Shown: positions 14,663 to 64,000 of the stretch, one piece after another
Numbering within the stretch: the stretch's first letter is position 1
How the letters are laid out: each line of letters opens with the position of its first letter
Assembly (NCBI GenBank): GCA_013180625.2
Contig: SNVD02013576.1
Coordinates: 19,252 to 83,251, forward strand
Length of the DNA: 64,000 nucleotides
From: Boswellia sacra
Lineage: Eukaryota; Streptophyta; Magnoliopsida; Sapindales; Burseraceae
Reading direction: 5' to 3'
Position numbers and translations under genes: made by a program
The notes under the pieces: generated by a model
What the model saw: only the letters and a program-made list of their open reading frames with translations
Told to the model about the DNA's origin: nothing
Database searches by the model: none

Positions 14663-14792
14663 TCTTACCTTCCAATATGAATAATTACTGTCATCAAGGA
14701 TAGGTTGTTATGTTTCGGATCCTCCATTGCGAATAAACTCCATTCTTCCATATCAGCCTGATTGTTTTCTTCACTTGTCTATTAGTGAATCT

Positions 14793-14804: not shown

Positions 14805-14806
14805 AT

Positions 14807-30727: not shown

Positions 30728-30733
30728 AGTTTT

Positions 30734-33659: not shown

Positions 33660-34620
33660 CACTACAAGAAAAAAGTAAATATTTGACTGTTTTTAGCCGT
33701 CAAATATGATAATATTTGACGGTTTTTGCGTGTCATATATGTCACCGTCAAATATGATAATAGTTAACCGTTGGTCAAACAGTCAAATATTCACTATAGC
33801 ATTATTTGACTCTTACAAAACAGTCAAGTTTGTATACCTTTAGATTTAAATTTTAGGCTTTATTTGACGGTTTATTGAAGAAATATTTGACATTAACCGT
33901 CAAATATGACAAAGTAACGGTCAAAATTTTTAAATTTTTGTTAATAATATTTGACAGTAACCGTCAAATATTATGAACCTAACGGTCGAATTTTTTAAAA
34001 TTTGACTGCTTATAACCGTCAAATATTATGCAGTAACCGTCAAGTTTTACAAAATTTTTTCCATATTTGATTGCTTTTGAGCGTCAAGTATGTGAGCATA
34101 GAATAATATTTGACTCTTTTTGACAGACAAATATTATTACTTTAATACTTGACCCTTTCGATACTGTCAAGTATGACAAATATTTTGGCTAATATTTGAC
34201 TCTTTACGAAACATATTTGATTGCTTTTGACCGTCAAGTATGTGAGCTATTGGACAGTCAAATATTATTACTTACTTGACCGTTTCAACACTGTCAAGTA
34301 TAACAAAAATTAAAATCAAATTTTTCCATATTTGATTCCTTTTGACCGTCAAGTATGTCAGTATTATTATTTGACTTTTTTGACCGACAAATATTTTGAC
34401 TCATATTTGACTCTTCTCATATTTGACTGTTTATTATACTTGTCGGTTTAGACACTGTCATGTATTACAGAACTCATATTTGACTTATTGTGTCAAATAT
34501 TACCCCAATTTTTAGCTCATATTTGACTGTTTATTAATAGATAACCGTCAAATATGACATATTCAACCCATATTTGACGGTTTGTTATTGTCAACTTTTT
34601 GGGAATGACCAAATCATTAA
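33660..34620. repeat. CACTA left subterminal repeat region
   Basis: Dense array of short repeats in both orientations, consensus ATATTTGAC and its complement GTCAAATAT, often as small inverted pairs around 10-25 bp spacers. The same word recurs sparsely at the right end (49180-49300). In En/Spm elements such subterminal repeats bind the TNPA-type protein; the TTGAC core is also a WRKY W-box core. Confidence 0.9.
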
Positions 34621-34642
34621 ACCTGAACTATCAAGTATGTAT

Positions 34643-34693
<51 letters not shown>

Positions 34694-35810
34694 ATATTTT
34701 TCAAAAAAATTATAATCTTTCTACATAATACAAATAGAATTGGCTGATACATTTTAGTTAATAACTACGTACCATGGCTATTATTTGCTTCCTAGCAAGT
34801 CTTCAAGGGTGCAGCTAATTATAATATAAAAGCATTTCATGGCTTAATATAATTAATAAAGAGATCAAAGTCCTTGATCTTAAAGAATTAACCCCAGTAT
34901 GTCAAATGTTGCAGCATAACATCCTTCACAACTATGAGTCCAAAACAGAAAATTAATGGTAGGAAATTATACCAAAACAATAAAGAAGAATAATATAACA
35001 GGACAACAAATGAATGATTACAGAGTAGCGTTCTTGTCCAACTGGCATAACTCTGTGAAGGGTTGACCTACAAGAGAGGACACACGTTAAGATAACAAAA
35101 CTCGCCCTTGCTAAATAAACCACTCAATATTAGCATTAGTTTAATAAAAACATATTCATTTGAGCCTAGAACATGTATATTACTCAATGGAGAAAATGAA
35201 AAGTTGGTTCAGTTAGCAGAGTGATAAATTACCGAAATAAACAATTAGTCCATCTCTCCATCATGTCTACAGTATTTACAATGAATGCCCTGCAGTAGAC
35301 TAAAGTTCTGAATCCAGAATTTCAAAGCAACTTACCATCCAAGATGTTCTGCGACATACCGGATTCTCTCCCTCACTCGAATTAAAATTCAAAAAATAAA
35401 AAGTAACAAAATAGTTGATTTTATTGAGTTGTATTTGTCTATTGAGAACGATGAATGCAGAGTGATGAGTGATGGGAGGGAAAAGCATCGATCAATGAAA
35501 ACTAAGAAGAATGAAAGAGGAAAAGAAAGCGGCTAGGAAATTAAACAGACAAAATGGATTATGGATGTTTAGCATTCTTTTGAACCAGACCAGTGTTCAA
35601 TTAACATTAATATAAAATGTCCAAGCCTTTGAAGCTTTGGTGGTCAATACAGAAGAAACTAAAAGGTGTACAGAAAATTGCAAATAAGTCAATCTTGCTA
35701 GAATCCGTTGGAATCCAAGATTCTGAAACATCAAACTTTAACATATAGCTCACAGACTGATAGAAAAGGAGTAACAAATTAATATTTGTCAAGGGGATGC
35801 CAAGACTAAC
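34621..35810. other. CACTA interior, mostly non-coding
   Basis: (AT)n-rich microsatellite at about 34641-34690. On minus, short exon-like stretches ending in GT donors are visible (RERIRYVAEHLGW before a donor near 35333), but I cannot assign them. Otherwise nothing recognised. Confidence 0.4.
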
Positions 35811-37124
35811 CTATCGAGAAGCATTAATTGCCTCACTTTGAGCTACTGCATACATTCCTCGAAGATGTCTAAGTTCAATTCTCAACTTTTCAAGCTCAAA
35901 GTTATAATTTACCTGCATATACATCAAAAGATTATATAATTCACTGGGGCATATGTCTTCTTGACCTCAAAGATAACACTATATATCATTGAAAACTTGG
36001 CTTTTTGAAGAAGTTGCTTGCTTTTTCCATTAAATTTGTAGTCTTCTGGTCTCAACTGGCTTTGTATTAATGAAGAAATAATTAGCAAACACCATTTTGG
36101 CATCTTTCAAATTTTGGAGTTTTCATATGTCAATTGAATAACACAGCACAGCAAATATTCACAAATACCAAAGGCAATTTTACATACAAAATCTGTTACC
36201 AGAATAAAAGAGAACATGTAAAGTAGAAGTAGTAGCAGTAAACTATTTTGGAAAGAAGCATACAATAAATGCTAGTCACGGAAAGGAAAGAAAATATTCA
36301 CTGATGCCCACCAGAACACTAAGTGCAAAAAAAATGGCAAAACTACCTAGCTTTCAGATGTAGAATAATCTGTCAGAGCACCTGAGGTGGAAGCTTGTTC
36401 AGACAAATCAGGGTTATCAGATAAGAAGCTCCTGTAACTAGAACTTCGACTTACAGGGTCTCCCACTTCTAAACTACTAAGAGAACTCATTCCATCCTTC
36501 CCTTCCTCAGTATCAATAGACTGACATAGTGACTGTGTAGTCTCCATAGAACTTGCTCTTGAATGAAGGAAGGTCTTGTTTATGGCTGAAAGAGCCTGAA
36601 ATCACTACACTAGCAGGGAAGGAGAACGAAAATGGGTGTATGAAGGAACTGAGCCAAGATCTGCATACTCCAAAGAACAGAAGAAAACATGTGTTACAAC
36701 TTGTGTTAGCTTACACCAACTCGTGGAGAAATTTTCTTGTGAAAACTAAGATCCTAACGTTCAACTCACCAGATCTAATCATATTATTTCTGTTAAATAC
36801 AGAAGAACTTGGTGAATGATAAGAAAGTTAATATATGTGTAACCAATATACGATATAAAATTGTTCCTCACAAAATAAGCATGCATCTCACCAAACCAGA
36901 TTTAGTAAACTGAAGTACGATTACCTATTTGTGAGCTGAAAGAGTAACTTGATGAACTTTTGTTGGAGCAACTTGTGTCACTGCTATCATCTTTAATGCT
37001 TCCATTTTTGTCTAACTTAGATGGGTGGATGGATGACCATTTTCCTTTCAAAACAACATAAACTATACAAAAGCCTGGAGTACAAACTGCGATTCTCGAG
37101 GACAGATCATCTTTCTTAAGTTTC
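35811..37124 (-). pseudogene. USP-domain protein kinase (PUB33/35-like), three exons captured
   Basis: Exons on minus with GT-AG borders: 37124-36925 (KLKKDDLSSRIAVCTPGFC, IVYVVLKGKWSSI: end of the USP domain), 36660-36347 (DLGSVPSYTHFRSPSLL, ALSAINKTFLHSRASS, VSRSSSYRSFLS, TSGALTDYSTSES) and 35912-35811 (NFELEKLRIELRHLRGMYAV). These are the USP end, Ser-rich linker and start of the coiled coil of plant USP-kinase/U-box proteins. Kinase and U-box domains are absent. A TAG replaces the expected Gln at the end of exon 2, and exon 2 has a frame disruption near 36600. Confidence 0.78.
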
Positions 37125-38607
37125 CTGCAAAAATTATCTTATTACATTCAAAATATGTGCAGTGGAAATATGAGAATATACAACACATAACAGGTTCCAC
37201 GGATGATATTCCTTATCTATTATCTTAAAATAAGAGGACATGCTCATTGATTACTTTCAACCATCAAAATGTGTACGTGGCAGCCGAAGCGGTAGAGTGA
37301 TCGGCGGTGATGAGATCCATCAATGTGGTGCCGGAAGAGTTCTAAAATGAAATGAAATGGAAAGAGAAATGAAGTGAAAAAGAATTGGATCTGGGAAGGG
37401 AAGAGAATTGAATTCAGTTATTATTTTTAGTTACCGCCAAGATTGCGTTGCGAATGGATGGGTAGTCAGTTGGGTTGGGTTGGGTTGGGTTGGGTTGGTT
37501 GGCTGATTGGATGGTTTAAGAAGAGACAGAGGAATTAGAGGAGGAGAAATTAAATTTATTAGCTTCAGTCAGTCAAGAGTCAGAGAATAAGATTCTCAGC
37601 CCACAATGCTCAAAATGCAGAGAAATCAAAAACCCTTACAAATTGTAGAGGAATCAAATGGAAGTACAGAAATAAAGGCCTAACAAATAATCGTGCTAGC
37701 TGCTCTTGCTATTGCAAACTCTCCTGCAAACAATACACTGTTTGGTCACAAATGGATTATTTGGTTGTAATTGACTGTCACAAAATATTTACAAAGGACA
37801 GAGAGGCAGTTGCAGCAAAAACTAAATGATTTCACATCAAAGAAAGTAGATCAGGATGTGAAACACATATGGTAGTCCAAAGCAATGTTCCTGTTGTATG
37901 TTTTAAAAGAGTGTAAAATCTTCCGGTAATTTCTGAAAAACAAAGCAACTAAATATGAAAACAGTATTGAATAAATAGGCCTACTTTAGGAAAGGACCTT
38001 CGGTGCATCCGCTGCACCGTGTAGCGTGCAAAGCTGGCCCGATGGGTAGCAGCCAGCTCGGTTGCAGCAGCTGAGCTGGCTGCCGCCCATTGGACCAGCT
38101 TGGCATGCTGCACGGTGCATTGAAGACTTAGCCTTATTTTAGAGGTAAAAAGTGTAGCATTCTTCTGAAGTCATTAGACTGCCATATCTTCTTCTGTCCT
38201 AGATGTTTAGACTGCCATATCTTCTTCTGTCCTAGATGTCCAACAAAAAAATCAGATTTGCTACCACATACCCTTCATGTTGTCATAAGAAAGCATCTGG
38301 ATTCTGGAAGCAGAAAACCTATTTGACTTCGCCTGACAATTAGATAGAACATATTTCTACAGGAACTTTTGCAATTATTTACAAACTAGTTCCACATGGA
38401 ACTGCCATTAGGATCATGTTTTCATTAATTTCACTTTTAGATCAATGGAGCTAAAGTTCAATACATTAGAGGTATTACACGTGTATCATTTTTAGCATAT
38501 TTGTACTCCATGAATGCATATGTAACGAAGCACATAAAAGCCTTAACTCAGTTTATGCACTCATTTAGCCATAATCAATTCAAGTTCATGAAAGCAGAGG
38601 CTTATAC
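37125..38607. other. CACTA interior between gene fragments
   Basis: Includes a possible 5' exon on minus near 37314 (MDLITADHSTASAATYTF, unassigned), a (TTGGG)n microsatellite at 37471-37497, an imperfect hairpin (38011-38119) and a 33-bp tandem duplication (agactgccatatcttcttct unit, about 38170-38236). Confidence 0.5.
38011..38119. repeat. GC-rich imperfect hairpin
   Basis: Arms of about 50 bp (38011-38061 and 38071-38119), roughly 80% complementary by eye, around a 9-10-bp loop. The arm starts GCTGCACCGTGTAGCGTGCA. It is strikingly GC-rich against its surroundings. Could be a foldback/MITE fragment or a small-RNA hairpin. Confidence 0.6.
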
Positions 38608-38992
38608 CATCAGGATGAGCCATTTTCTGCATGGCGGTTGGAGCAATCATGATGGGCATTGAAGTCTTGAAGCCCAATACAGTTGTTGTCACATCAATCT
38701 TGCTTACATCAATAAGGATGCAAGGCCGAAACCTATTTTTCACAAAAAGAAAACTTTTCTTCAGATTTGAAGAAGCAATGAAAAGATAGAATATCATCAG
38801 CAAAAAGTCAGATTAACCCAGAACAAAGGTCATTATTAGTTGATTTGAAATATACAAAAGAGCTTACAAGATCCTAGAGAATACATCTCTGTTTTCCTTC
38901 TGAGTCCATTGGTCCTCTGCCCCTGATGCAGAGTAGTCATATATCATCTTTGGCAACTTCTGCTTTGCAATAGCTTCATACTCCATTACATC
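38608..38992 (-). pseudogene. Glycolate oxidase (2-hydroxyacid oxidase) fragment, two exons
   Basis: Exon 38992-38868 reads [40 protein letters not shown]. Exon 38732-38608 reads [20 protein letters not shown] and [19 protein letters not shown], each with correct splice borders. This is the FMN-binding N-terminal quarter of peroxisomal glycolate oxidase (photorespiration: glycolate to glyoxylate). The start codon exon and the catalytic C-terminal barrel are missing. Confidence 0.9.
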
Positions 38993-39178
38993 CTCAAACA
39001 AACATAAGGAGACAACTGAATCAAAATAAAAGTCAAAACCCATTAACATACAAGTAAGCATCAAGAAAAAAGTTTTGATAAATAAAAAGTAAAAGCCTAA
39101 TAACCATTGTTAACTGACATAATGGCTTGATTTTTATCATGCTAAACCTTCAAATGCTAAAAGAGCCACCATTGTTAC

Positions 39179-40341
39179 TCTGGTGGCAGCTGATTGGATA
39201 GAGTCTCCAAAAGAATTCTCCTCTCCACAGCACGGACCTCTTAGCTGCACCACCGTAAGATTGCTTTAACATGACTGGTTGAAAAGGAAGGGGAAAATTT
39301 TTGTGCTTTTTCACAACACCCAGATAAACAAATAAACTAAAAAGTCGACCCCATTCAATACCTTTCATCTTCATCTTTGAATTTGAAGGAGCGCATTTCC
39401 ATTCCATCTTCTGACTTTATTGCCATCCTGCTCAGCTGATCACATGGACAAGTTCAGATAAGGGTAAAAAAGGGTTGCTTATATTGAAAATCAAGCATGT
39501 GCAGTCTCACAACCCAAATATAATACTTGAAGTTTTACCGATATTTGGGCATTTTTAGACAATCCTCTACCTCTTATCAAAATAAGAGTTTCAGTGGAAG
39601 AAGTCTATGCCTTTACACACTTTAAAGTGTAAATTTTTCAAAGGGAAATAAAATATACCCTTGAATTTCAAGGAATTGCCTCCTGAGTTCACTTCCAACA
39701 CCAATTGCATCGAATATCCGCCATCCATTCTTGAAAAGGGTGAGTGAAGTTCCTCCAGTTCGAAGTGAATCTGCCTGCTCAAGCAGCAATGACCAAACAC
39801 TGAGCCTAATGATTCAAAATTCATCAGTTAAGTAGCGGTTATTGTTAGGAAAATGCAGTTAAGCATAAAATATGTCGAGATTCATAACTCTCATCACACA
39901 AGCAAATACAAGAATTTAATATATTGATTCAGTATGACCAGGCTATAGTTAGTATAATTTGACTCAAGAGTATTTGTAGTTATACGAGAAGAAGAAAATG
40001 CCACGCAATCACACTGACTTCACCACACTCGTGAAATATTATATAGGTCAGGAGAAACAAACACCATGAAAAATTAGCTGATCAGATTTGAGGGTTCATT
40101 TAATCTAACCTATGCAGAGATACTGCAGTAGCAAGTCCTGCAATCCCAGTGCCAACAATGACAATATCCTCCTTCCTGGAATACCCTTCAGCTTTACTAA
40201 TTGATAGACAAACGGGTTTGATTCTAGTTCGAGAACACGACCAAGAACAACTCTGTGGACAATGAATCACTCTACTCTGAAAATGAGACAAAGAAGATGG
40301 TAATAAGAAGAGATCAAGTACAGAGGAGATAAAGAGGCCAT
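39179..40341 (-). pseudogene. FAD-dependent monooxygenase fragment, four exons
   Basis: Exons: 40341-40110 (ATG 40341 MASLSPLYLISS, frameshift, then KEDIVIVGTGIAGLATAVSL with the GxGxxG FAD motif), 39805-39659 (LLEQADSLRTGGTSLTLFK, NGWRIFDAIGVGSELRRQFL), 39427-39362 (MAIKSEDGMEMRSFKFKDED) and 39244-39179 (EVRAVERRILLETLSNQLPP). A TAA stands where a Gln codon would be expected at the start of exon 4. It matches plant zeaxanthin-epoxidase-like/MO1 flavoprotein monooxygenases, N-terminal third only. Directly upstream of the glycolate oxidase fragment on the same strand. Confidence 0.87.
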
Positions 40342-41111
40342 AGCCGTCGTGCTCCAGTGATGAACGTGAAAAAATGAAAAACAGAGTCTGTGATGGGACG
40401 CAAGAGAGAGAGGTTGGCTACGAAACAAGTGGTGGAAATAAAACGGTTAATTATTCACCAAATCCATAGTTCTTTTACCCAGGAAAGCAACTTCGAAGTT
40501 TTTGGGCCTGCCTGAAGCGTGAATCTAGCCTGCACAAAAGTGGGCACATAATAGTTAACCTCACGCGTTGATAACTCTACAGCCTATGATTGCTTTGTCA
40601 AACATCTGCAACACAAGTGCGGGAGGACTTAAGAAATTAATCTTGATTCCTGATTTATAGGGAAAAAAACTCAAGAAAATATTATTTCGTAAAATTTCTT
40701 TGGGTAAACAATTACAACCCGAAAACCAGCACATGAGAAAATTCCAAAAAAACAAGAAAAACAAAAAAAATCAAAGGGCTAAAAGAAATGGTAGTCATAT
40801 TTTCTTTTACTTTCTTGATTGTCTTCCAATAGGCTTTAAAAAGAAAGAGCAATGAAGAAGAACTCACAAGATGGCGACAGGTTATAGTGGAGTCAAGCCA
40901 GAGGTCTGTCTTATACATCTTTTCTTCGGGTTCTCCTTTAAAAAGTCGAAGAATTGAGGCACAGAGAACTCATAGGTTTCATTAATCATCAACATCGTCG
41001 TCAATTGAAATTCATGTCTGTCCGCGGTAAGCAAAGATATAAATTAAATGCTTTATAGCTTGTGAAAACAAAGCAGAATCCAAAATAAAAATGTTTTCAC
41101 AAGATGCGTAC
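40342..41111. other. CACTA interior, no exon assigned
   Basis: Intron-like AT-rich sequence between the FAD-monooxygenase and ISWI fragments; no protein recognised. Confidence 0.4.
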
Positions 41112-42015
41112 AATTGGGGCATGCGAGGAATTCGTGGCTCTTTTGGTTTGGCTGGACCACCTTGGCGCATTGTTTGCTTGAAGTACTCGGATTCAGAATA
41201 ACTAATAAATGGACAGAAGACAAAAAATTATTAAATCAACAATGATGAGCAATAAACATGTACAGACTTTAAGTACAAAGATGAGATAACAGTTACTTGC
41301 GCTTCCGCTCTCTTTTTGGTGGTTCAATCCAGTTTTCACTAACAATTTTCTTGAAATCAAACTTGTTCTCGTCCTTTAACAGCAGGAACGCAAGAAATAA
41401 GCAACTAAAGCAATACTAATAATACAAGCCGAAACCAACCGAATTTAAATGACAAAATATGATAGCGATGCCTTACCTTCTCATCATCAAAATCATACAA
41501 TTCAGCAGCTGTAATACAACAAAATAATTCCAATAATTTATGTTTTCATCTTTCAAATAAAATTGAATAAACATCAAACAAGAAACTGAAACTCAAAAGG
41601 GCAAAATTCTTCAGCAACAACTACATACTATCATCCATTTTAAATTTAATAGCATCCTCTGTAAATTTCTTCATTTTCGCATCGAATCCAGCTGTAGCCT
41701 CTTCTCCTTTAGCAATAATTCTGTCAATATCCTCATCTGTAATTGTGCTATCCTTGGAGCTGAAAACCATTTCAGCGCCAAACCTCACCATCTGCAGCAG
41801 TTCAACTTTATTGACAGCTGCATATAAAAAAATAAATAAATAAATAAAAGATGGAACGACATCAAAATCTGTCGCTGAGCAAAAGTTTTCATAAATAATT
41901 AGTAATATAAAAGCCACTTACTCTTCTGCTCAGCTAATCTTCCTTGTTGAATGACCAGAGCATCAAGTGCAAGCTTTTTATAAGCCCTCTCAATAACTTT
42001 TTCCTCAATAGTGTA
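41112..42015 (-). pseudogene. ISWI chromatin-remodelling ATPase (CHR11/CHR17-like) fragment, five exons
   Basis: Minus-strand exons with GT-AG borders: 42015-41922 (YTIEEKVIERAYKKLALDAL, VIQQGRLAEQK), 41817-41629 (VNKVELLQMVRFGAEMVFSS, TITDEDIDRIIAKGEEATAG), 41508-41477 (AELYDFDDEK), 41373-41297 (DENKFDFKKIVSENWIEPPK) and 41201-41112 (YSESEYFKQTMRQGGPAKPK, PRIPRMPQL). This is the stretch from the end of the helicase C-lobe to the start of the HAND domain of plant ISWI. ATPase motifs and the SANT/SLIDE part are absent. The reading is nearly undamaged, suggesting fairly recent capture. Confidence 0.92.
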
Positions 42016-42452
42016 CTGTTCGTATTCAATCAACATTAGAATTAATCTATCTACCACAAACTCATATCATGGCACATAACTGGAAAATAAAAAAACAATG
42101 TTAGAAGAAAAAGTTTCTCATTGATTGAGAAGTTTGCATAGTCATGATTACCATATCCAAATGCTGCAGAAGATTCAAGATATAATGTGCATCAGTCCTC
42201 TTCCAAACACAATTTGTGCAAGACATAACAACAAATTTAGATATGGAGATCATTCAGAATTAGGATGGTGTGCAGAATATCAGAATTTTGGAGCGTATGA
42301 AGGAAATGAATCGCATAATATGAATATCTGATGTAACCAGATTTGAATAGTTCCAGCACTTATTTATTTTTAAGCAAACAATGCATAATAAAATTTAATT
42401 AATTTCCCAAGACCACAAAATTGAAAATAATGTAAAGATAATCAACACCTAC

Positions 42453-43798
42453 CTATTAGCTTCTTTTTTACAAAAACAAGTGCTGCATGTCCCAAACTCT
42501 CAATATTCAAAAACACTTCTTTTGATTCATCGCTCACATAAATACTGCCAATATATATAATTGAGCAAAGCTAAAATAAACTTCTCAGCATAGATTCCAA
42601 ATATGAGTCAAAACAAATAGAATACAAATAGATAGGGACAAAACTTATTACTCTATTGCCTGGATTAGCAAAAGGCTTCATAAATATGATATCACTATCC
42701 TTCAAGAGAAGACTTTATGGGAATTGCACTGTGAAGTTCACTATAAGCAGATGGAAGGACACAGAAAACAAGCTAGCAGCCTTGCTCTTTGTTGAATTAG
42801 CCAATAATCTGAACTGAAAAGCAGAGAACCAGAAGAAAAAAATAGTTCTATGATAAGTTTGGTGTATTAGAACTTGTTTTATCCAGAAAACCAATTCGTA
42901 AAATAACTAGTTACATTGTTCCTCCAAAACTTTTTGCAGAAATAGAATGGTAAGTATAAAGAATTAATTACCTTGTCGTATACCACAAGTAATCACTAGC
43001 ATCTTTTGTTGTTTTAATCTGCTCTAACAGACCTGACTCTGTGAAAGAGTAATTGCTTGAAACACCAACTTCTTCTATAAACCAGCTCCATGCCGATTGT
43101 GCCAATGACAACTCATTAACATTGTTTTTTTGACCAAAGGAATGATCACCAATATTTCTTTGTGAAACAACCTTCAAGTAAAGAAAAATTCAGTTTAATA
43201 GACTGTAGCAAGACATAAACATAACACACAATTAGAATAAAATTTAGATATCGAGTTGCAAATGTTAATGTAATAACTACTGCAGATATAGATTATTAAC
43301 TAAAAAATCAATAAAAGCAATCTAAGTGATACCATTTATATAATCTTGAACGTATACCAATAGCAATATAATTGTACCTTTGCTGTGTTAAAAATGACAT
43401 TCTTACAATCTGGAAGAATGCTTATGGACCAGGCTGGAAGGAAGTATAAATTCCCATTAAACATGACATTTGCATCTGAACTGTTGTCATAATTGGCAAG
43501 GAAAGCTGCACACTCGTTTGTAGGTTTATAATAGACGTGTGCCTGTTGTTGAGAATACAAAGAAAGCATGCTAGAATGAGCAAAAATGAGGATATGGGCA
43601 TCCCACACTGCAACTTTGTTACTAGAGAACAAGCCCATACCAGAATTTTAAATTGAAGTGTCTTATCAAACTTGCATGAACATCCTAACTGCACAAATTT
43701 TACCTCTAGATTAACGCCAAGTTATCGGTGAATCGGGTCTGAGCTGATCAAATACTCCTCGCAGAGCTTTATGGCCTTGTGCAAGTCTCGTAGTTGAA
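42453..43798 (-). pseudogene. Plant beta-galactosidase (GH35) fragment, four exons
   Basis: Exons: 43798-43704 (QLRDLHKAIKLCEEYLISSD, stop within PIHR*LGVNLE), 43542-43378 (AHVYYKPTNECAAFLANYDN, NGNLYFLPAWSISILPDCKN), 43171-42972 (WSWFIEEVGVSSNYSFTESG, LLEQIKTTKDASDYLWYTT) and 42544-42453 (DESKEVFLNIESLGHAALVF). These are the central and C-terminal beta-sandwich regions of cell-wall beta-galactosidases. The catalytic barrel is missing. The first exon carries a TAA. Confidence 0.9.
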
Positions 43799-44513
43799 CT
43801 TAAATATGAATACACACAAGCTTAATAATTCAGCGAATAGTTGAACTTTTAAAAAAAGAAAAAAAATAAACATCTGTACATAGAAAAGGAATAAATTCGA
43901 CGATGACTATTAAGAAGTGTGGAGTGTAGGAAAGGTAAGCCAATGCTTTAAAAAATAAAAAGAAAAGAAAAGAAAAAGAAACACAATAAATATAATGCAT
44001 ATGATGAGCACATAAAAGTGTGATTTTCTATTCTTTGCAACTGTCACTTCATCTATCATCGATGAATCATTTAATTTGTAACAGAGACACCAAAAATTAA
44101 AGCATTAATTTCCTGTGAAAGTGAAACTGATTTATAATTGGACGAAATTTAATGAGATAGAGAGAGATATATCTACTTTGTGCAACTGTCGCTGCAGGCT
44201 TTCGTCGTAACATATATCAACTTGATATACTGTACAAAATTAATAGTATAATTAAAAGAAGTAAAACAACCACTTAAACTCCATCGAAAATAAACAAGAA
44301 AAACGGCACAGCTAGCCTTTAGTTATATTTTTCTTGAATTCATAAAAAAGTATAGAGAGATTTTTGCTCTTTAATGAACATTAACTACACTAAAGAATAG
44401 AGTTGAGCTGATGGGGACACTTAACAGGAGTATAAATTAAACAATATATAGCAGATCAGGAAAGAGAGTGGCAGACGAGAGTATGAAGCGGGGAACAATT
44501 AGGAGAGAAATAC

Positions 44514-44693
44514 CGCTTGTTGAATTCTAGAGAGGTAAATGGCCAGTGAGCACTCAGGTTTTCCAGGACAAAGAGCGGACATAGTAACATCAGTGATGAC
44601 CGGAATCACCATGAAGGTTGGGAAGCTGTATAGAAAGAATGTCAAGAACAGAGGATTTAAAGTTGACAGCTTTTCCATCTTTCTCTCGGACAT
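44514..44693 (-). pseudogene. HIAT1-like major facilitator transporter, first exon
   Basis: ATG 44693 reads MSERKMEKLSTLNPLFLTFF then YSFPTFMVIPVITDVTMSAL and CPGKPECSLAIYLSRIQQA up to a GT donor at 44513. This resembles the first transmembrane segment and loop of plant hippocampus-abundant-transcript-like MFS proteins (tetracycline-transporter-like). Only exon 1 is present. Confidence 0.75.
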
Positions 44694-45508
44694 ACACAAG
44701 CTTTATAGCAAGACAAATGAAAAAGGCAGCTGAAGGGGAAGCGTATGCTACGATATGAGGAGAAATTATGGTCTTGAGAGATGAAGCGTTGGTTAATTAA
44801 TAGAGTTGAAATATTTGCTCGACAAATTAAAGGTGGAGATGTTGTGTGTTTGAGTTAGATGTATATACATTTCCCATATGAATAGATTACTCTCGCAATT
44901 AACGTATGGATCCATTTGATCATATATTCATCCAAGTCAATGTTATCATAAGAATTACAGGGTGACATGACATCACACATCAGCTCTGTGAACTAAATAT
45001 GAAATTAAAAGAAAAGAAAACCAACAATAGTAATCTAATTGTAGCCAAGGAAAGTTAATGTAGAAAAAGATAAACCGAGCCAAAGTCATAGAGGAGTTTG
45101 TTTTTATACCCTGTTATGGCATAGTATATACGGCAATGATACCAAAGCACTTTTGCATATTTAATTCATGGCTCTGAAATAGAGAAAGCAGCAAAGATGC
45201 ATATTTTTTTATAACTCTGAAATTAAGAATGTGCGTAAGAGACTCTTTAAGTCACAAATTAAGACCAGTCACATTAACTACCATAAAAATTTGAATTCTA
45301 TTATTTCAGTTGAAACATCTAATTTGATGATTCTTAATTCTGATGAAAGAAAAAAAGGGGAACTTTCAACAACTCTACTATGTCTGACTATTGCAAATAA
45401 TATAGCAGTCATGCTGAAGATCATACGTTTCAGTTATAAAATGGAAACATTCAAAAGATAAATAATAAAGATAATAATACAATAGAGCTTTCAGATAAAT
45501 TGACGAAC

Positions 45509-45848
45509 CTGCATGATCCAGTTGGAATATTTGATATAGACAATGCATCTATGCTGCTGTAAGTTAATTTAGAATGCTCTAAGGTCCTGTTTGTCCAATT
45601 AACTGGTACCATGACTGTAAATGCAAGGAAGGCAATCGGAACAAAAATTTTAAGCCTGCACTTAAACAAGAAAGGAACAGGCATGAGTGAGTCTAAGACA
45701 AAAATAAATGAATATCAGGAAAAGAGGAACTCTCAGAAGAGCATACCCTATCAAGTAAATCCTCAATTAAATAGCAGAATCCAATCCTGCATGGTCAATT
45801 AGCTCAGGCTCTGGCATTTGCAGTGCTGCTGGCATCCAGCTCAGAAAC
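45509..45848 (-). pseudogene. OSCA/CSC1-like hyperosmolality-gated channel fragment, two exons
   Basis: Exon 45848-45747 reads FLSWMPAALQMPEPELIDHA, GLDSAI, a TAA in place of Tyr, then LRIYLIG. Exon 45655-45509 reads LKIFVPIAFLAFTVMVPVNW, TLEHSKLTYSSIDALSISNI. This is the N-terminal loop and second transmembrane segment of plant CSC1-like/OSCA (DUF221) channels. Splice borders are intact; the TAA is shared by the inverted copy. Confidence 0.88.
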
Positions 45849-46437
45849 CTCACAATAAAAAAACAATTCAGATTACATCCATAATGCATAAACTTCAACA
45901 GCAGTGGTGCTTCTAAAGATATTCTAAGATCAATATTACATTTTTGGCAAAGATATTTTAAGAACCCAACTTTGTAGTCCCATAAGGTTCATAAAGAGAA
46001 TTAGGACATATCCAAAGAAGCCACTTAAAATAATAAATGAATAAATAAAACATCAAGACAATAGCATGGTATTGAGTAGTAAACCTGCTACATTACATAA
46101 GATGACTTCAAGAAAAAACTACAATAATAAATAAACATAGTTAAATCTTAGACGTAGTAGCTTGAGCCTTGTAGCTTGCCTTATACATAAGCTTGTGCAA
46201 CTAAATAACCTGATCTAAAACTTTACACTAAAATGTTCAACCAACTTAGCACTTATCATCAATCTACTGTTATATATTTAGATCAAACCAAAAAACCTAC
46301 TCCCATGTATAATAGGTGTTTATTCCGGTGATGTACAAAACACTACAAGTAACCAGCAATTGGACGCCTACTTATTTCCTATAACAGAGTTTATTCAACC
46401 TATCAAACTAATAAATTAAAGCAGATTCAGCATCTAC

Positions 46438-47035
46438 CTTGGGCAAAGTTGCGTTATCAGCTGATCCTAACGTTTGCTCAAGATTCTGAGATGCATAGTT
46501 AAGTATAGGCATTGATGAAGTTCCAAACCAAACCACTTGGCTTATCAGCATCATGCATATTACTATTGGTCTCACCACCACCACCTGACGTATTTTGAGT
46601 GATTTTATCTTCATTCTGGCCCCAGGAATTCTTCGTGCTGTTATCAGTGATGCTCATCAAACCCAACTCCTGCTCACAAGCAGATTCACCCATGGATTGG
46701 ATGTCCAAAAAAAGTGACCAAATTGAAGAAAGCTCAGCAGCTGAAGGGCAGCCAGAATAGCAATTGATTGGTTGCCGTTTATGTGTGGAATCTGATGTGG
46801 AGGTTCGGTGGCCATTCCAATTACAAGTCTGACAAAGAGAAATCCTCTCTTCCACACATCTTACCGATGCCGGCTGTGAATTACATCTTTCACACAAAAG
46901 GGTCCTCGAATGGCGCTTAGATAAGGCATCGGCTGAATATACGTTTTGATCACACGATAAACATAAACATGCTGCATCAAAGCGGCAATACATAATAGAT
47001 CTTTGATCCCCACAAAAATCACAGATGTATCCCAT
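46438..47035 (-). pseudogene. B-box zinc finger (COL9/COL10-like), first coding exon
   Basis: ATG 47035 [20 protein letters not shown] begins two tandem B-boxes (CX2CX7-8C pattern; second [20 protein letters not shown]), followed by [19 protein letters not shown], typical of CONSTANS-LIKE 9/10. A one-base shift after KPSGLVW breaks the exon; the original frame resumes [20 protein letters not shown] and ends at a GT donor (46437). The CCT domain and later exons are absent. If translated it would give a 178-aa dual B-box protein lacking CCT, the shape of a small dominant-negative microprotein. Confidence 0.9.
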
Positions 47036-48506
47036 TTTCCGAACTCAAGATTTTCTCTTCAAATAACAAATTCCCAAAAAACTACTATAGAACGATCAAG
47101 CTAAAGATAATAACTTCAGAAGTGTATTACAGTTCTCCCAACTGCACTTGCAAACTTCAAAAGAACATACACATATTTAGTAAAAACCCATAGAAAATTT
47201 CATCTGAAACCATATGTAAAGCAGAGTTATATTGATGCATAAACATAAAAAACATAGCTCTGTAGCCATATAACCCAGCTAATATATATGCAACCAAAAT
47301 AAATAAATAAATAAAGCCAGCTAATACAGCAAAGTACCATCAAACAGTTTCAAACTATGAACAAGTATTTCAAAAAAAAAAATAGTCTCACATTAGAAGA
47401 GATTAGAGGAAAGAGAACACTTTCATCAATTCAACACAAGCTGATCCCTGAGATCGATAAACGTAGAAATTTTGGGGAAAAAACAAAAAATAAAAAACAC
47501 TTATTTGCCTAAAGTTAATCTAGAAATGAATTTTTTTTATCACAGAATTATGAGCTTAGCAAACTGTACCACAAAAACTATCGAACAGATAAATCCAACC
47601 CAGAAAAATAACAGGAATTCCAATCACCCAAAAACAGAAATAACAAATAAAAATCTTTTATCAAAGCAAATCCAATAAAAACAAAAATCTAATAAATCAC
47701 AACAGTTTTTATCCAAACCCACCTTGAAAAAGTACTAAAGCGAACACCTCATAGTTTTTTTCCCCTACCAGTAGCTTAATACTAAAGAATCAAAATAATT
47801 AATTATGTCTTGCACCTAAAAAGGTAATTAAGCCAAAAGAGAGAAGAACGTACTGTTGCACCACCATGAAGAATAGTTTGACCAAAATAATGTGTTCTTG
47901 TGCCAAGAGAGAATGTGAAAAAGATAGAACACAGCTGAAATTACATTGTAATGAAACTAACAACAGCCTGCAACCAACATTAATCAAAAGCAAACCAAAT
48001 GACTATTAAGTTGATTGTCAAAAGAATAAAGATCTAAATTAAATTTTGGGTAAAGAGATGCTACACAACAGAAGGTAGAGTACTTAATTTACAGAAAGTC
48101 CATGCATGAAACATCAAAAACCCCCATTTAAATGATAGATAATTTCCATAACCTCAGATGTCTAAAAGAAACAGCAAAAAAAATTTCTACAAAGAAACTG
48201 CTTCATAAAAAAATCAATGAATAAATAAAGAGGAAACACAGTCCATATACCAACTAAACAACAGACACCAAGTCTTAACCAAGCAATTAAACAGCATCTA
48301 AAGAGAAATTTATAAAGCTCTATAAATTTATTCATATATATCACAAAATTCTGGATTAAAAAATTCTTAAAAATATAATATTAAATAACAAAATAAACAA
48401 ATTTATTCATATATATTACAAAATTCTGGATTAAAAAAATTCTTAAAAATCAGAGAAGGAAAGCAACAGTTAAAATTAGAAAAAAAATTTCTGATTTTCT
48501 ACGGAC

Positions 48507-48863
48507 CTATGCTCTTCTGGGCTCCAAGGGACTCCCCTTCTCCTCTCAGTCTCCCTCTCCTTACCCTTAGCAGGCCCACCAAACCCTAAACTCGTCACGC
48601 ACTTGCCGGCCGAGTCTAACTCGTCGCAATATCTCGGCAGTTCGACACGCCTAGAATCAATCTCCCACAAATCACAAACCAACTCCTCGTAACGCTGCCG
48701 CACGTCCAGCGAATTCTTACCGGGGACTTGGCCGACGATCTTCTCCCACCTCTCTGGGGTTTCATCGAAAAATATCACGAGGGCCCCCCTCGAAGAGCTT
48801 GTCCTGCTCGCGAGACCAGGGCGAGGAAAGCGCTGGGGATTCAAGGCTGTTGCTGTGAATCAT
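48507..48863 (-). pseudogene. DIVARICATA-like MYB (SANT) transcription factor, first exon
   Basis: ATG 48863 reads MIHSNSLESPALSSPWSREQ DKLFEG (start of the first SANT repeat). A one-base shift in a G/C run follows; then ALVIFFDETPERWEKIVGQV, LDVRQRYEELVCDLWEIDS, ending RRGVPWSPEEH at the start of the second MYB repeat, and a GT donor (48506). The exon is GC-richer than its surroundings. The second DNA-binding repeat (SHAQKYF) is missing. It lies nearest the right CACTA end with its own leader upstream. Confidence 0.88.
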
Positions 48864-49311
48864 TTCTTGATATTTGCAATCTTTGAGCGAGCTTGAGTTT
48901 GAGTTTGAGTTGAATCGTGGTTAAAGTGAACTGGTAAAAAGGGGCCGGGGCCTGGGCTGGGGCCCCTGTCCAACGACTTCGTTAACTTAAAGAGATTCGA
49001 GTGAGGGAGATAAGCTATTGAACCGCAAAGCAAAGAAGAAAGTGAGAGAACGACGGCAAGAGTGAAGGAGGGAAAGCGATTTGGGCTGAAAGAGTAAGAG
49101 GAAAGCGATTTGGGGCAAAAGAAAAAAGGGGGAATGAAAAGATTATATATATACAATGACAAATTTGTAAATAAAATAAAAATTAATAGTGTCAAATATA
49201 AACAAAAAGCATGTTGACTTTTTTAAGGTAACATCATTCTTTACGGTTTTACAAAAAATGGTCAAATATGTAAAAGCTAATGTGTCAAGTATTTCAAAAT
49301 TTCTTGTAGTG
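48864..49311 (-). promoter_or_regulatory. Captured MYB leader and possible promoter at CACTA right end
   Basis: On minus, from the terminus inward: subterminal ATATTTGAC-like words, a TATATATAAT box (about 49145-49153), then a CT-rich, leader-like stretch down to the MYB ATG. All nine captured fragments lie downstream on the same strand, so a transcript starting here could read through all of them. The promoter call is inference from layout. Confidence 0.4.
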
Positions 49312-49314
49312 GAT

Positions 49315-49571
49315 GTTTTGTCAACCTCCGCCGAAAGTATATCTTTACTTTTCATGCTTCACGTGGGAGACAAGTGTGGAGGTTTTGTCAACCTCCGCCG
49401 AAAGTATATCTTTACTTTTCATGCTTCAGGGGAGACAAGTGTGGATGCTTGTCAAACCCCACCGGAAAGTATATCTTCATTTTTCTGCTTCACGTGGTAG
49501 ACAAGTGTGGAGGTTTTGTCAAACCCCACTGAAAGCATATCTATTTTTTTCAATCCTCGGGACCGGGGGCG
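49315..49571. repeat. 67-bp tandem repeat upstream of LOG (left copy)
   Basis: About four units of 59-68 bp beginning gttttgtcaacctccgccga and ending cacgtgggagacaagtgtgg. Each well-preserved unit contains a CACGTG G-box core. The CACTA element inserted at the end of the preceding unit. Confidence 0.88.
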
Positions 49572-49755
49572 ATAAATTCTGCTCTAGCAACCCCCACCGA
49601 AATTATGTCCCCGTGTGTCAAATTTGAGACTTTTATGTGTGTATATATCCATTCTGTATATTTTCAAAGGTCATTCTATAACCTGTCTTGCACTTGAAAA
49701 ACATATTACCTAACTTGCATCATTGTCTTACACAAAGTTTAGAGCACTTTTAGAA

Positions 49756-53536: not shown

Positions 53537-53574
53537 CTGTCTCTTATACACATCTAGATGTGTATAAGAGACAG
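53537..53574. other. Nextera mate-pair junction adapter (two Tn5 mosaic ends)
   Basis: CTGTCTCTTATACACATCT (53537-53555) followed directly by its reverse complement AGATGTGTATAAGAGACAG (53556-53574). This 38-bp palindrome is identical to the circularisation junction used in Illumina Nextera mate-pair libraries. It lies exactly at the symmetry axis of the inverted duplication. It is library sequence, not plant DNA. Confidence 0.97.
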
Positions 53575-57332: not shown

Positions 57333-57509
57333 TTCTAAAAGTACTCTAAACTTGTGTAAGACAATGATGCACGTTAGGTATTATGCGATTCAAGTGCAAG
57401 ACAGGTTATGAAATGACATTTGAAAATATGCAGAATGGATATATACACACGTAAGACTCTCAAATTTGACACATGGGGTCATAATTTCGGTGGGGGTTGC
57501 TCGATGCAG

Positions 57510-57771: not shown

Positions 57772-58221
57772 CACTACAAGAAATTTTGAAATACTTGACA
57801 CATTAGCTTTTAAATATTTGACCATTTTTTGTAAAACCGTAAAGAATGATGTACCTTAAAAAAGTCAACATGCTTTTTGTTTATATTTGACACTATTAAT
57901 TTTTATTTTATTTACAAATTTGCCATTGTATATATATAATCTTTTCATTCCCTCTTTTTTCTTTTGCCCCAAATCGCTTTCCCTCCTTTACTCTTTCAGC
58001 CCAAATCGCTTTCCCTCCTTCACTCTTGCCGTCGTTCTCTCACTTTCTTCTTTGCTTTGCGGTTCAATAGCTTATCTCCCTCACTCGAATCTCTTTAAGT
58101 TAACGAAGTCGTTGGACAGGGGCCCCAGCCCAGGCCCCGGCCCCTTTTTACCAGTTCACTTTAACCACGATTCAACTCAAACTCAAACTCAAGCTCGCTC
58201 AAAGATTGCAAATATCAAGAA

Positions 58222-58578
58222 ATGATTCACAGCAACAGCCTTGAATCCCCAGCGCTTTCCTCGCCCTGGTCTCGCAAGCAGGACAAGCTCTTCGAGGGGG
58301 GCCCTCGTGATATTTTCCGATGAAACCCCAGAGAGGTGGGAGAAGATCGTCGGCCAAGTCCCCGGTAAGAATTCGCTGGACGTGCGGCAGCGTTACGAGG
58401 AGTTGGTTTGTGATTTGTGGGAGATTGATTCTAGGCGTGTCGAACTGCCGAGATATTGCGACGAGTTAGACTCGGCCGGCAAGTGCGTGACGAGTTTAGG
58501 GTTTGGTGGGCCTGCTAAGGGTAAGGAGAGGGAGACTGAGAGGAGAAGGGGAGTCCCTTGGAGCCCAGAAGAGCATAG
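58222..58578 (+). pseudogene. DIVARICATA-like MYB first exon (inverted copy)
   Basis: ATG 58222; SPWSRKQDKLFEG, the same one-base shift in the GGGGGGCCC run, then ALVIFSDETPERWEKIVGQV to the donor after 58578. Differs from the left copy at a few residues (K/E, S/F). The leader and TATATATAAT box (about 57931) lie between it and the CACTA terminus. Confidence 0.88.
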
Positions 58579-60049
58579 GTCCGTAGAAAATCAGAAATTT
58601 TTTTTCTAATTTTAACTGTTGCTTTCCTTCTCTGATTTTTAAGAATTTTTTTAATCCAGAATTTTGTAATATATATGAATAAATTTGTTTATTTTGTTAT
58701 TTAATATTATATTTTTAAGAATTTTTTTAATCCAGAATTTTGTGATATATATGAATAAATTTATAGAGCTTTATAAATTTCTCTTTAGATGCTGTTTAAT
58801 TGCTTGGTTAAGACTTGGTGTCTGTTGTTTAGTTGGTATATGGACTGCGTTTCCTCTTTATTTATTCATTGATTTTTTTATGAAGCAGTTTCTTTGTAGA
58901 AATTTTTTTTGCTGTTTCTTTTAGACATCTGAGGTTATGGAAATTATCTATCATTTAAGTGGGGGTTTTTGATGTTTCATGCATGGACTTTCTGTAAATT
59001 AAGTACTCTACCTTCTGTTGTGTAGCATCTCTTTACCCAAAATTTAATTTAGATCTTTATTCTTTTGACAATCAACTTAATAGTCATTTGGTTTGCTTTT
59101 GATTAATGTTGGCTGCAGGCTGTTGTTAGTTTCATTACAATGTAATTTCAGCTGTGTTCTATCTTTTTCACATTCTCTCTTGGCACAAGAACACATTATT
59201 TTGGTCAAACTATTCTTCATGGTGGTGCAACAGTACGTTCTTCTCTCTTTTGGCTTAATTACCTTTTTAGGTGCAAGACATAATTAATTATTTTGATTCT
59301 TTAGTATTAAGCTACTGGTAGGGGAAAAAAACTATGAGGTGTTCGCTTTAGTACTTTTTCAAGGTGGGTTTGGATAAAAACTGTTGTGATTTATTAGATT
59401 TTTGTTTTTATTGGATTTGCTTTGATAAAAGATTTTTATTTGTTATTTCTGTTTTTGGGTGATTGGAATTCCTGTTATTTTTCTGGGTTGGATTTATCTG
59501 TTCGATAGTTTTTGTGGTACAGTTTGCTAAGCTCATAATTCTGTGATAAAAAAAATTCATTTCTAGATTAACTTTAGGCAAATAAGTGTTTTTTATTTTT
59601 TGTTTTTTCCCCAAAATTTCTACGTTTATCGATCTCAGGGATCAGCTTGTGTTGAATTGATGAAAGTGTTCTCTTTCCTCTAATCTCTTCTAATGTGAGA
59701 CTATTTTTTTTTTGAAATACTTGTTCATAGTTTGAAACTGTTTGATGGTACTTTGCTGTATTAGCTGGCTTTATTTATTTATTTATTTTGGTTGCATATA
59801 TATTAGCTGGGTTATATGGCTACAGAGCTATGTTTTTTATGTTTATGCATCAATATAACTCTGCTTTACATATGGTTTCAGATGAAATTTTCTATGGGTT
59901 TTTACTAAATATGTGTATGTTCTTTTGAAGTTTGCAAGTGCAGTTGGGAGAACTGTAATACACTTCTGAAGTTACTATCTTTAGCTTGATCGTTCTATAG
60001 TAGTTTTTTGGGAATTTGTTATTTGAAGAGAAAATCTTGAGTTCGGAAA
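58579..60049 (+). other. Intron-like DNA between MYB and B-box fragments
   Basis: Long AT-rich stretch without coding signal, starting at the MYB donor. It contains a near-perfect direct repeat of about 75 bp (ttaagaattttt...ataaattt, at 58639-58688 and 58714-58765). Mirror of 47036-48506. Confidence 0.6.
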
Positions 60050-60647
60050 ATGGGATACATCTGTGATTTTTGTGGGGATCAAAGATCTATTGTGTATTGC
60101 CGCTTTGATGCAGCATGTTTATGTTTATCGTGTGATCGAAACGTATATTCAGCCGATGCCTTATCTAAGCGCCATTCGAGGACCCTTTTGTGTGAAAGAT
60201 GTAATTCACAGCCGGCATCGGTAAGATGTGTGGAAGAGAGGATTTCTCTTTGTCAGACTTGTAATTGGAATGGCCACCGAACCTCCACATCAGATTCCAC
60301 ACATAAACGGCAACCAATCAATTGCTATTCTGGCTGCCCTTCAGCTGCTGAGCTTTCTTCAATTTGGTCACTTTTTTTGGACATCCAATCCATGGGTGAA
60401 TCTGCTTGTGAGCAGGAGTTGGGTTTGATGAGCATCACTGATAACAGCACGAAGAATTCCTGGGGCCAGAATGAAGATAAAATCACTCAAAATACGTCAG
60501 GTGGTGGTGGTGAGACCAATAGTAATATGCATGATGCTGATAAGCCAAGTGGTTTGGTTTGGAACTTCATCAATGCCTATACTTAACTATGCATCTCAGA
60601 ATCTTGAGCAAACGTTAGGATCAGCTGATAACGCAACTTTGCCCAAG
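60050..60647 (+). pseudogene. B-box zinc finger (COL9/COL10-like) first exon (inverted copy)
   Basis: ATG 60050, two B-boxes, the same frameshift after GLVW and the same donor after 60647. Two residue changes from the left copy (IVYC for IMYC, CDRN for CDQN); both right-copy residues look like the ancestral B-box sequence. Confidence 0.9.
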
Positions 60648-61236
60648 GTAGATGCTGAATCTGCTTTAATTTATTAGTTTGATAGGTTGAATAAACTCTG
60701 TTATAGGAAATAAGTAGGCGTCCAATTGCTGGTTACTTGTAGTGTTTTGTACATCACCGGAATAAACACCTATTATACATGGGAGTAGGTTTTTTGGTTT
60801 GATCTAAATATATAACAGTAGATTGATGATAAGTGCCAAGTTGGTTGAACATTTTAGTGTAAAGTTTCAGATCAGGTTATTTAGTTGCACAAGCTTATGT
60901 ATAAGGCAAGCTACAAGGCTCAAGCTGCTACGTCTAAGATTTAACTATGTTTATTTATTATTGTAGTTTTTTCTTGAAGTCATCTTATGTAATGTAGCAG
61001 GTTTACTACTCAATACCATGCTATTGTCTTGATGTTTTATTTATTCATTTATTATTTTAAGTGGCTTCTTTGGATATGTCCTAATTCTCTTTATGAACCT
61101 TATGGGACTACAAAGTTGGGTTCTTAAAATATCTTTGCCAAAAATGTAATATTGATCTTAGAATATCTTTAGAAGCACCACTACTGTTGAAGTTTATGCA
61201 TTATGGATGTAATCTGAATTGTTTTTTTATTGTGAG

Positions 61237-61576
61237 GTTTCTGAGCTGGATGCCAGCAGCACTGCAAATGCCAGAGCCTGAGCTAATAGACCATGCAGGA
61301 TTGGATTCTGCTATTTAATTGAGGATTTACTTGATAGGGTATGCTCTTCTGAGAGTTTCTCTTTTCCTGATATTCATTTATTTTTGTCTTAGACTCACTC
61401 TTGCCTGTTCCTTTCCTGTTTAAGTGCAGGCTTAAAATTTTTGTTCCGATTGCCTTCCTTGCATTTACAGTCATGGTACCAGTTAATTGGACAAACAGGA
61501 CCTTAGAGCATTCTAAATTAACTTACAGCAGCATAGATGCATTGTCTATATCAAATATTCCAACTGGATCATGCAG
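61237..61576 (+). pseudogene. OSCA/CSC1-like channel fragment, two exons (inverted copy)
   Basis: Exons 61237-61338 and 61430-61576, splice borders as in the left copy, same TAA in exon 1. Confidence 0.87.
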
Positions 61577-62391
61577 GTTCGTCAATTTATCTGAAAGCTC
61601 TATTGTATTATTATCTTTATTATTTATCTTTTGAATGTTTCCATTTTATAACTGAAACGTATGATCTTCAGCATGACTGCTATATTATTTGCAATAGTCA
61701 GACATAGTAGAGTTGTTGAAAGTTCCCCTTTTTTTCTTTCATCAGAATTAAGAATCATCAAATTAGATGTTTCAACTGAAATAATAGAATTCAAATTTTT
61801 ATGGTAGTTAATGTGACTGGTCTTAATTTGTGACTTAAAGAGTCTCTTACGCACATTCTTAATTTCAGAGTTATAAAAAAATATGCATCTTTGCTGCTTT
61901 CTCTATTTCAGAGCCATGAATTAAATATGCAAAAGTGCTTTGGTATCATTGCCGTATATACTATGCCATAACAAGGTATAAAAACAAACTCCTCTATGAC
62001 TTTGGCTCGGTTTATCTTTTTCTACATTAACTTTTCTTGGCTACAATTAGATTACTATTGTTGGTTTTCTTTTCTTTTAATTTCATATTTAGTTCACAGA
62101 GCTGATGTGTGATGTCATGTCACCCTGTAATTCTTATGATAACATTGACTTGGATGAATATATGATCAAATGGATCCATACGTTAATTGCGAGAGTAATC
62201 TATTCATATGGGAAATGTATATACATCTAACTCAAACACACAACATCTCCACCTTTAATTTGTCGAGCAAATATTTCAACTCTATTAATTAACCAACGCT
62301 TCATCTCTCAAGACCATAATTTCTCCTCATATCGTAGCATACGCTTCCCCTTCAGTTGCCTTTTTCATTTGTCTTGCTATAAAGCTTGTGT

Positions 62392-62571
62392 ATGTCCGAG
62401 AGAAAGATGGAAAGGCTGTCAACTTTAAATCCTCTGTTCTTGACATTCTTTCTATATAGCTTCCCAACCTTCATGGTGATTCCGGTCATCACTGATGTTA
62501 CTATGTCCGCTCTTTGTCCTGGAAAACCTGAGTGCTCACTTGCCATTTACCTCTCTGGAATTTAACAAGCG
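62392..62571 (+). pseudogene. HIAT1-like MFS first exon (inverted copy)
   Basis: ATG 62392 (MSERKMERLSTLNPLFLTFF). The 3' end reads SLAIYLSGI then TAA, where the left copy has RIQQ, so here the exon carries an extra stop before the GT donor at 62572. Confidence 0.75.
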
Positions 62572-63286
62572 GTATTTCTCTCCTAATTGTTCCCCGCTTC
62601 ATACTCTCGTCTGCCACTCTCTTTCCTGATCTGCTATATATTGTTTAATTTATACTCCTGTTAAGTTTCCCCATCAGCTCAACTCTATTCTTTAGTGTAG
62701 TTAATGTTCATTAAAGAGCAAAAATCTCTCTATACTTTTTTATGAATTCAAGAAAAATATAACTAAAGGCTAGCTGTGCCGTTTTTCTTGTTTATTTTCG
62801 ATGGAGTTTAAGTGGTTGTTTTACTTCTTTTAATTATACTATTAATTTTGTACAGTATATCAAGTTGATATATGTTACGATGAAAGCCTGCAGCGACAGT
62901 TGCAGAAAGTAGATATATCTCTCTCTATCTCATTAAATTTCGTCCAAATGTAAATCAGTTTCACTTTCACAGGAAATTAATGCTTTAATTTTTGGTGTCT
63001 CTGTTACAAATTAAAGGATTCATCGACGATAGATGAAGTGACAGTTGCAGAGAACAGAAAATCACACTTTTATGTGCTCATCATATGCATTATATTTATT
63101 GTGTTTCTTTTTCTTTTCTTTTCTTTTTATTTTTTAAAGCATTGGCTTACCTTTCCTACACTCCACACTTCTTAATAGTCATCGTCGAATTTATTCCTTT
63201 TCTATGTACAGATGTTTATTTTTTTTCTTTTTTTAAAAGTTCAACTATTCGCTGAATTATTAAGCTTGTGTGTATTCATATTTAAG

Positions 63287-64000
63287 TTCAACTTCGAGAC
63301 TTGCACAAGGCCATAAAGCTCTGCGAGGAGTATTTGATCAGCTCAGACCCGATTCACCGATAACTTGGCGTTAATCTAGAGGTAAAATTTGTGCAGTTAG
63401 GATGTTCATGCAAGTTTGATAAGACACTTCAATTTAAAATATGGTATGGTCTTGTTCCATACTTTAACAAAGTTGCTAGTGTGGGATGCCTGATCCTTCA
63501 TGTTTTGCTGCATTCATAGCATGCTTTCTTGTATTCTGCAACAACTGGGCACACATCTATATAATACTACAAACGAGTGTGCTCTGCTTTCCTTGGGCGC
63601 TATTATGAGCATACAGTTCAGATGTCATAATGTATGTTTTAATGGGTATATTATAATACTTCCTTCGCAGGCTGGTCCTCATAAGCATTCTTGCGTGTCG
63701 AGATTGTAAGTAATGTCATTTTAAGCAGGCCTCGGGATTAGCAAAGGTATAATTATATTGCTATTGGTATACGTTCAAGATTATATAAATGGTATCACTT
63801 AGATTGCTTTTATTGATTTTTTAGTTAATAATCTATATCTGCAGTAGTTATTACATTAACATTTGCAACTCGATATCTAAATTTTATTCTAATTGTGTGT
63901 TATGTTTATGTCTTGCTACAGTCTATTAAACTGAATTTTTCTTTACTTGAAGGTTGTTTCACAAAGAAATATTGGTGATCATTCCTTTGGTCAAAAAAAC
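63287..64000 (+). pseudogene. Beta-galactosidase fragment (inverted copy, partial)
   Basis: First exon 63287-63381 is as in the left copy. The second exon (about 63570-63745) is full of small insertions relative to 43378-43542 and no longer readable. The third exon starts at 63953 and is cut by the window end. Confidence 0.8.

Follow-up and report, generated by a model that had tools for sequence, protein, structure and literature searches.

What kind of element lies between positions 33660 and 49311 of the 64,000-nucleotide stretch of Boswellia sacra DNA analyzed here (contig SNVD02013576.1, positions 19,252 to 83,251 of the forward strand; hereafter the window), and why do the pieces of host genes inside it all run in one direction? 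An earlier note on this DNA had read the region as a CACTA element without a transposase that carries fragments of nine or more host genes, and had proposed selection on one chimeric read-through transcript. We consider it very probable that the region is a non-autonomous Pack-CACTA transposon with captured host genomic fragments that are decaying neutrally. The element is real and large, of an ordinary kind, with a high number of fragments and without evidence of function. Its ends and insertion site are defined by the following features:

33660..49311, no strand assigned: non-autonomous CACTA element of 15,652 bp, with matching 12-bp ends, subterminal repeats and an exact empty-site rejoin
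33660..33671, plus strand: left terminal inverted repeat, CACTACAAGAAA
49300..49311, minus strand: right terminal inverted repeat, CACTACAAGAAA
33657..33659, plus strand: target-site duplication, left copy, GAG
49312..49314, plus strand: target-site duplication, right copy, GAT (GAG beside the second element copy)
33679..34578, no strand assigned: left subterminal array in which the two strands together carry 20 exact GTCAAATAT units
49191..49269, plus strand: right subterminal repeats, 2 exact GTCAAATAT units (at 49191 and 49261)

The terminal inverted repeats begin with CACTA and match at 12 of 12 bases between the element ends, at 33660 on the plus strand and 49311 on the minus strand as the earlier note had placed them, and their similarity decays further inward. 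Exact GTCAAATAT units in either strand number 24 in the window (22 in the element and 2 in a second copy described below), against a mean of 1.34 in shuffles of the window. All 22 element units lie within 950 bp of an element end and occur in both orientations, so that the proposed subterminal repeats are confirmed. Hexamers of the type TTTGAC/GTCAAA are distributed with 31 of 42 before 34661, 2 after 49159 and 9 in the intervening 14.5 kb of the element. Internal relics of fused CACTA elements were considered and rejected, since these hexamers cluster at the ends with few between them. Terminal inverted repeats with one mismatch occur independently at 32201 and at 46341, of which that at 46341 recurs in the second copy; two such sites are close to the chance level of 0.77.

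CACTA elements are flanked by a 3-bp target-site duplication. The right flank of the element here is contained in a 67-bp tandem array, and the final 22 bases of its left flank match one unit of that array. When the element and one GAG were removed in silico, the resulting join was identical to the unit at 49360 along 22 left-hand and 47 right-hand bases. Moreover, the terminus of the second copy is followed by GAG at the position where this element has GAT. The matching ends, the subterminal repeats and this exact rejoining of the empty site make a single 15,652-bp insertion well supported. Pfam scans of 70 open reading frames (ORFs), including all 62 of at least 60 amino acids inside the element, recovered no transposase family, in agreement with the earlier reading, and the longest ORF inside the element has 181 amino acids. 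Scans for tRNA genes and Rfam families gave no match.

The captured gene fragments, from right to left, are:

48506..48863, minus strand: exon 1 of a MYB gene, presumably of the DIV type, from its ATG to a GT donor (RADIALIS match, E 2.7e-7; Pfam Myb 0.0011, below cut-off)
46408..47035, minus strand: exon 1 of a COL9-like B-box gene from its ATG (Pfam zf-B_box 1.3e-8; 179 homologues)
45745..45850, minus strand: OSCA-like channel exon (Pfam RSN1_TM 4.6e-5, below cut-off; in-frame stop at 45767-45769)
45508..45657, minus strand: next exon of the OSCA-like channel (OSCA structures, E 1.7e-14; Pfam 1.7e-10)
44514..44657, minus strand: presumed HIAT1-like MFS exon with a GT donor, without database match
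43375..43548, minus strand: beta-galactosidase exon, GHD domain (Pfam 1.9e-27; 6ik6_A residues 326-399, E 1.9e-18)
42971..43123, minus strand: next beta-galactosidase exon (6ik6_A residues 415-455, E 0.0082)
41111..42015, minus strand: ISWI ATPase, five exons with the intervening introns (6pwf_K residues 535-561, then 565-636)
40103..40171, minus strand: weakly supported FAD monooxygenase exon with a dinucleotide-binding motif (matches below cut-offs)
39658..39789, minus strand: next FAD monooxygenase exon, weakly supported
38867..38995, minus strand: glycolate oxidase exon (1gox_A residues 6-47, E 1e-15)
38606..38731, minus strand: next glycolate oxidase exon (5zbm_A residues 43-89, E 1.7e-18)
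35814..37099, minus strand: presumed USP-domain kinase-like exons with an AG acceptor, without database match

Six of the nine sources are well supported, namely the DIV-type MYB, the COL9-like B-box, OSCA, beta-galactosidase, ISWI and glycolate oxidase genes. The MYB piece includes sequence upstream of its ATG. Among the 120 matches listed of the 179 homologues of the COL9-like piece, the named ones are from plants and several are called CONSTANS-LIKE 9 or 10; the best identity among the matches listed is 82% over 73% of the query. The ISWI piece also gave a weak HAND match (0.019, below cut-off), and two of its five exons are putative, placed by sequence resemblance and frame. A FAD monooxygenase is weakly supported as a source: the two exons match positions 4-26 (E 0.039) and then 31-69 (E 0.0019) of the 3-hydroxybenzoate 6-monooxygenase model, both far below cut-off, and a structure search with the second exon returned no match. 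The searches run on the HIAT1-like and USP-kinase pieces gave no match, and both names are tentative. Exons from one parent are collinear with it (glycolate oxidase 6-47/43-89, beta-galactosidase 326-399/415-455, ISWI 535-561/565-636) and introns with GT/AG borders, read by eye together with their phases, are kept in the captured pieces. This parental exon order and the retained GT/AG introns indicate that genomic DNA was captured, as the earlier note had held. With its ends, its cargo and its lack of a transposase, the element thus stands as a Pack-CACTA with pieces of several unrelated host genes; of the nine sources first named, the HIAT1 and USP kinase assignments lack a database match.

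Part of this element is present a second time in the window, which the earlier note had missed together with the artificial sequence that separates the two copies:

57772..64000, no strand assigned: second element copy, right-hand 6.2 kb, inverted and continuing beyond the window end
53537..53574, no strand assigned: presumed Tn5 mosaic-end pair of 38 bp, a mate-pair adapter at what is almost certainly an artificial join

The end of the window forms an imperfect inverted repeat with arms at 43124-53536 and 53575-64000, both of which stop no more than 10 bases from a common point. Positions 43124-51612 align inverted to 64000-55446 at 96%, and the second copy is collinear with the element over 43124-49311, a segment that includes the MYB, COL9, OSCA and HIAT1-like pieces. 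The centre of the repeat, 53537-53574, is a perfectly self-complementary sequence of 38 bp that we take to be two Tn5 mosaic ends. The same 38 letters are described in a published report as a ring adapter, labelled with biotin, for a library of the mate-pair type (PMC7357533). Because this adapter sits exactly at its centre, the palindrome almost certainly arose when two diverged copies, either alleles or paralogues, were joined artificially, and the sequence to the right of 53537-53574 is probably not truly adjacent to that on the left. The element itself lies entirely on one side of the join. A biological origin of the giant palindrome (inverted duplication, alternative transposition or arm-to-arm conversion) was rejected on account of the adapter at its centre, and the reading of one molecule twice was rejected because 213 of 4085 flank sites are not the same in the two arms, 119 of these 213 differences being transitions. 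What looks like a giant palindrome in a plant assembly may thus have a library adapter at its centre, which is a warning for the mining of inverted duplications.

The divergence between the copies changes near the end of the element. Inside it 39 of 5650 sites differ (0.69%) versus 213 of 4085 outside (5.2%), and indel events number 4 inside versus 41 outside. The best single breakpoint is at 49098, and the interval within two log units of it, 49055-49554, includes the element end at 49311. The low inner divergence may be due to a later insertion with copying between loci, to the refilling of excision gaps or to homogenisation by the assembler; as a side reading, homogenisation of the copies may extend roughly to their ends, a pattern that refilling of excision gaps from the other copy would produce. 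The beta-galactosidase exon of the second copy falls in a noisy patch of about 260-300 bp (43385-43645 versus about 63440-63740) that contains 17 indel events, is flanked by 99-100% identity and, at about 63440-63740, looks like an unpolished raw read.

Two other sequences in the flanks were observed. A segment of about 1.2-1.4 kb occurs three times (29316-30732, 52345-53536 and 53575-54774), is 89-100% alike by piece, is partly inverted with respect to the first copy and adjoins the adapter on both sides. A LOG-like ORF at 56682-57380 on the minus strand is uninterrupted (Pfam Lysine_decarbox 3.5e-38), and its counterpart in the other copy, at 49753-50412 on the plus strand, carries stops and frameshifts. 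Searches with the LOG-like sequence matched many LOG-like proteins at about 60% identity, with many coming from one and the same genome, e.g., that of Reevesia pubescens; the best identity is 69%.

The possibility that the fragments are kept one way by selection on, or for, a single functional chimeric read-through transcript is quite unlikely, although it draws on several properties of the element. All nine pieces are on the minus strand, as the earlier note had observed, and among the 24 plus-strand ORFs of at least 60 amino acids wholly inside the element none scored above a curated cut-off. A two-sided sign test gives 0.0039 for nine pieces in the same direction and 0.016 for the seven with database support. 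Splice borders are kept, and the MYB piece retains sequence 5' of its ATG. However, the orientation is suggestive only, because it was picked post hoc from a whole scan, and the reading frames are broken. In the MYB piece, a run of G near 48784-48790 appears to be one base too long, which shifts the frame, and the COL9-like piece has a frameshift near 46525, beside a repeated TTTGG; translation started at the MYB ATG ends at a stop at 48762, and that started at the COL9 ATG ends at 46499. The disabling sites of the MYB, COL9-like and OSCA pieces have identical letters in both element copies. That these are losses relative to the parents is judged from homologues for COL9 and is presumed from the expected gene sequence for MYB and OSCA.

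In addition, His36 of the COL9-like piece is replaced by Tyr, whereas His occupies this position in 8 of 8 aligned homologues. B-box domains follow a rule of zinc spacing; the position fits it, and the Tyr probably replaces a zinc ligand. The two copies show 10 differences over 1426 exon sites and 29 over 4224 non-exon sites (odds ratio 1.02, Fisher p 1.0), a comparison limited to the MYB, COL9, OSCA and HIAT1-like pieces with 43124-43659 excluded from the counts, and one in which 39 changes give little power against weak constraint. Five of the ten exon differences fall in the HIAT1-like piece. The shared disablements, together with an exon divergence equal to that of the rest, argue against selection at the protein level, and the selected chimeric transcript proposed in the earlier note is not supported. 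A role for the RNA would be compatible with the divergence result, which speaks to the protein level.

That the element was stitched together by the assembler from unrelated contigs is very unlikely. The assembly does contain the adapter join and the noisy patch at about 63440-63740, but both element ends rejoin exactly into one repeat unit, there are no N runs, a search with the adapter cores turned up no other exact copy, and the second copy is collinear over 43124-49311, the left 9.5 kb lying outside that check. Helitrons have neither terminal inverted repeats nor a target duplication. It is very unlikely that a fragment-collecting Helitron inside the CACTA ends explains the number and orientation of the pieces. 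Maize helA Helitrons do resemble this element in their many captured fragments (0 to 12 each; PMC3288121), but a strict scan, which could miss degenerate ends, detected no GC-rich hairpin with a CTRRT end in the Boswellia element, the one site in the window, at 22420, being within a reverse-transcriptase ORF.

Three observations weigh against a neutrally decaying Pack-CACTA with nine captured genes. The target duplication that the earlier note had reported has one mismatch in this copy (GAG/GAT), with GAG beside the second copy and an empty site that rejoins exactly with GAG; two of the nine source names are without database support and one is weak; and the left 9.5 kb (33660-43123) lacks a second copy that could serve as a check. 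For this Pack-CACTA, a CACTA transposase from another element would bind and cut the ends and subterminal repeats. Several captures of host genomic DNA together with its introns would have made up the interior, probably in the course of repair that followed excision or via mobilisation of neighbouring insertions, and the captured pieces would then decay neutrally, the evidence for this last step coming from the right-hand 5.7 kb common to both copies only. Since the preserved splice borders all point one way, transcription of the minus strand, perhaps starting in the sequence upstream of MYB or outside the element, could yield spliced chimeric RNAs like those of the soybean element Tgm-Express1, and no long chimeric protein would be expected from the captured MYB or COL9 ATG.

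Tgm-Express1, a soybean CACTA element of 5.7 kb, resembles the present one in carrying several unrelated, intron-containing gene pieces, five in number, with canonical splice borders; splicing joins them as additional exons into a single transcript (PMC1947982), and since all of them appear as exons of that transcript they would share one direction. The two differ in size and content (five fragments in 5.7 kb versus about nine in 15.7 kb), in location, as Tgm-Express1 sits in an intron of a known gene whereas the Boswellia element adjoins a repeat array, and in that the latter is known from DNA alone. Pack-CACTA elements of Arabidopsis, with CACTACAA ends, and of maize likewise hold captured coding DNA between CACTA ends. 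The maize elements frequently draw it from several loci; the greatest number of distinct loci there is found in Pack-CACTAs, and wider elements tend to have captured more loci (PMC8903248). Our element is larger than the 15-kb upper limit of that survey (PMC8903248). Grapevine CACTA families measure 10-25 kb, some with captured gene pieces, but unlike this element they keep a transposase, and a captured PPR piece is antisense to it (PMC2528002). The fragment number of the Boswellia element is high, yet the word "exceptional" used in the earlier note is too strong in view of Tgm-Express1 (five), the maize Pack-CACTAs and the helA Helitrons (up to 12).

In both length and number of fragments the element goes beyond the soybean example of a multi-gene Pack-CACTA, and it lets one test clearly whether captured pieces run the same way. 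We conjecture, as an unlikely reading, that transcribed CACTA elements with several fragments follow a rule of single orientation, under which sense pieces accumulate; pieces antisense to the element transcript would yield RNA against their parent genes and be lost. The grapevine CACTA with its antisense piece counts against such a rule (PMC2528002), and the literature searches on Pack-CACTA elements, on fragments of like orientation in CACTA elements and on captured sense fragments showed no such rule stated for CACTA elements.

Elsewhere in the window, a 221-amino-acid ORF that adjoins the left side of the element (32746-33408, plus strand) matches the viral nucleic-acid-binding family PF05515 (2.4e-10) and Carla_C4 (3.9e-5), and is probably a fragment of an endogenous plant virus. 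Direct repeats at 5655-6694 and 14804-15879, 89.6% alike, surround a Copia-type reverse-transcriptase ORF and an ORF with a weak match to gag, and the region 5655-15879 is probably a long terminal repeat retrotransposon. A related stretch, 80-82% alike, is located at 27611-28482, and the best homologue of a reverse-transcriptase ORF of the window shows 73% identity.

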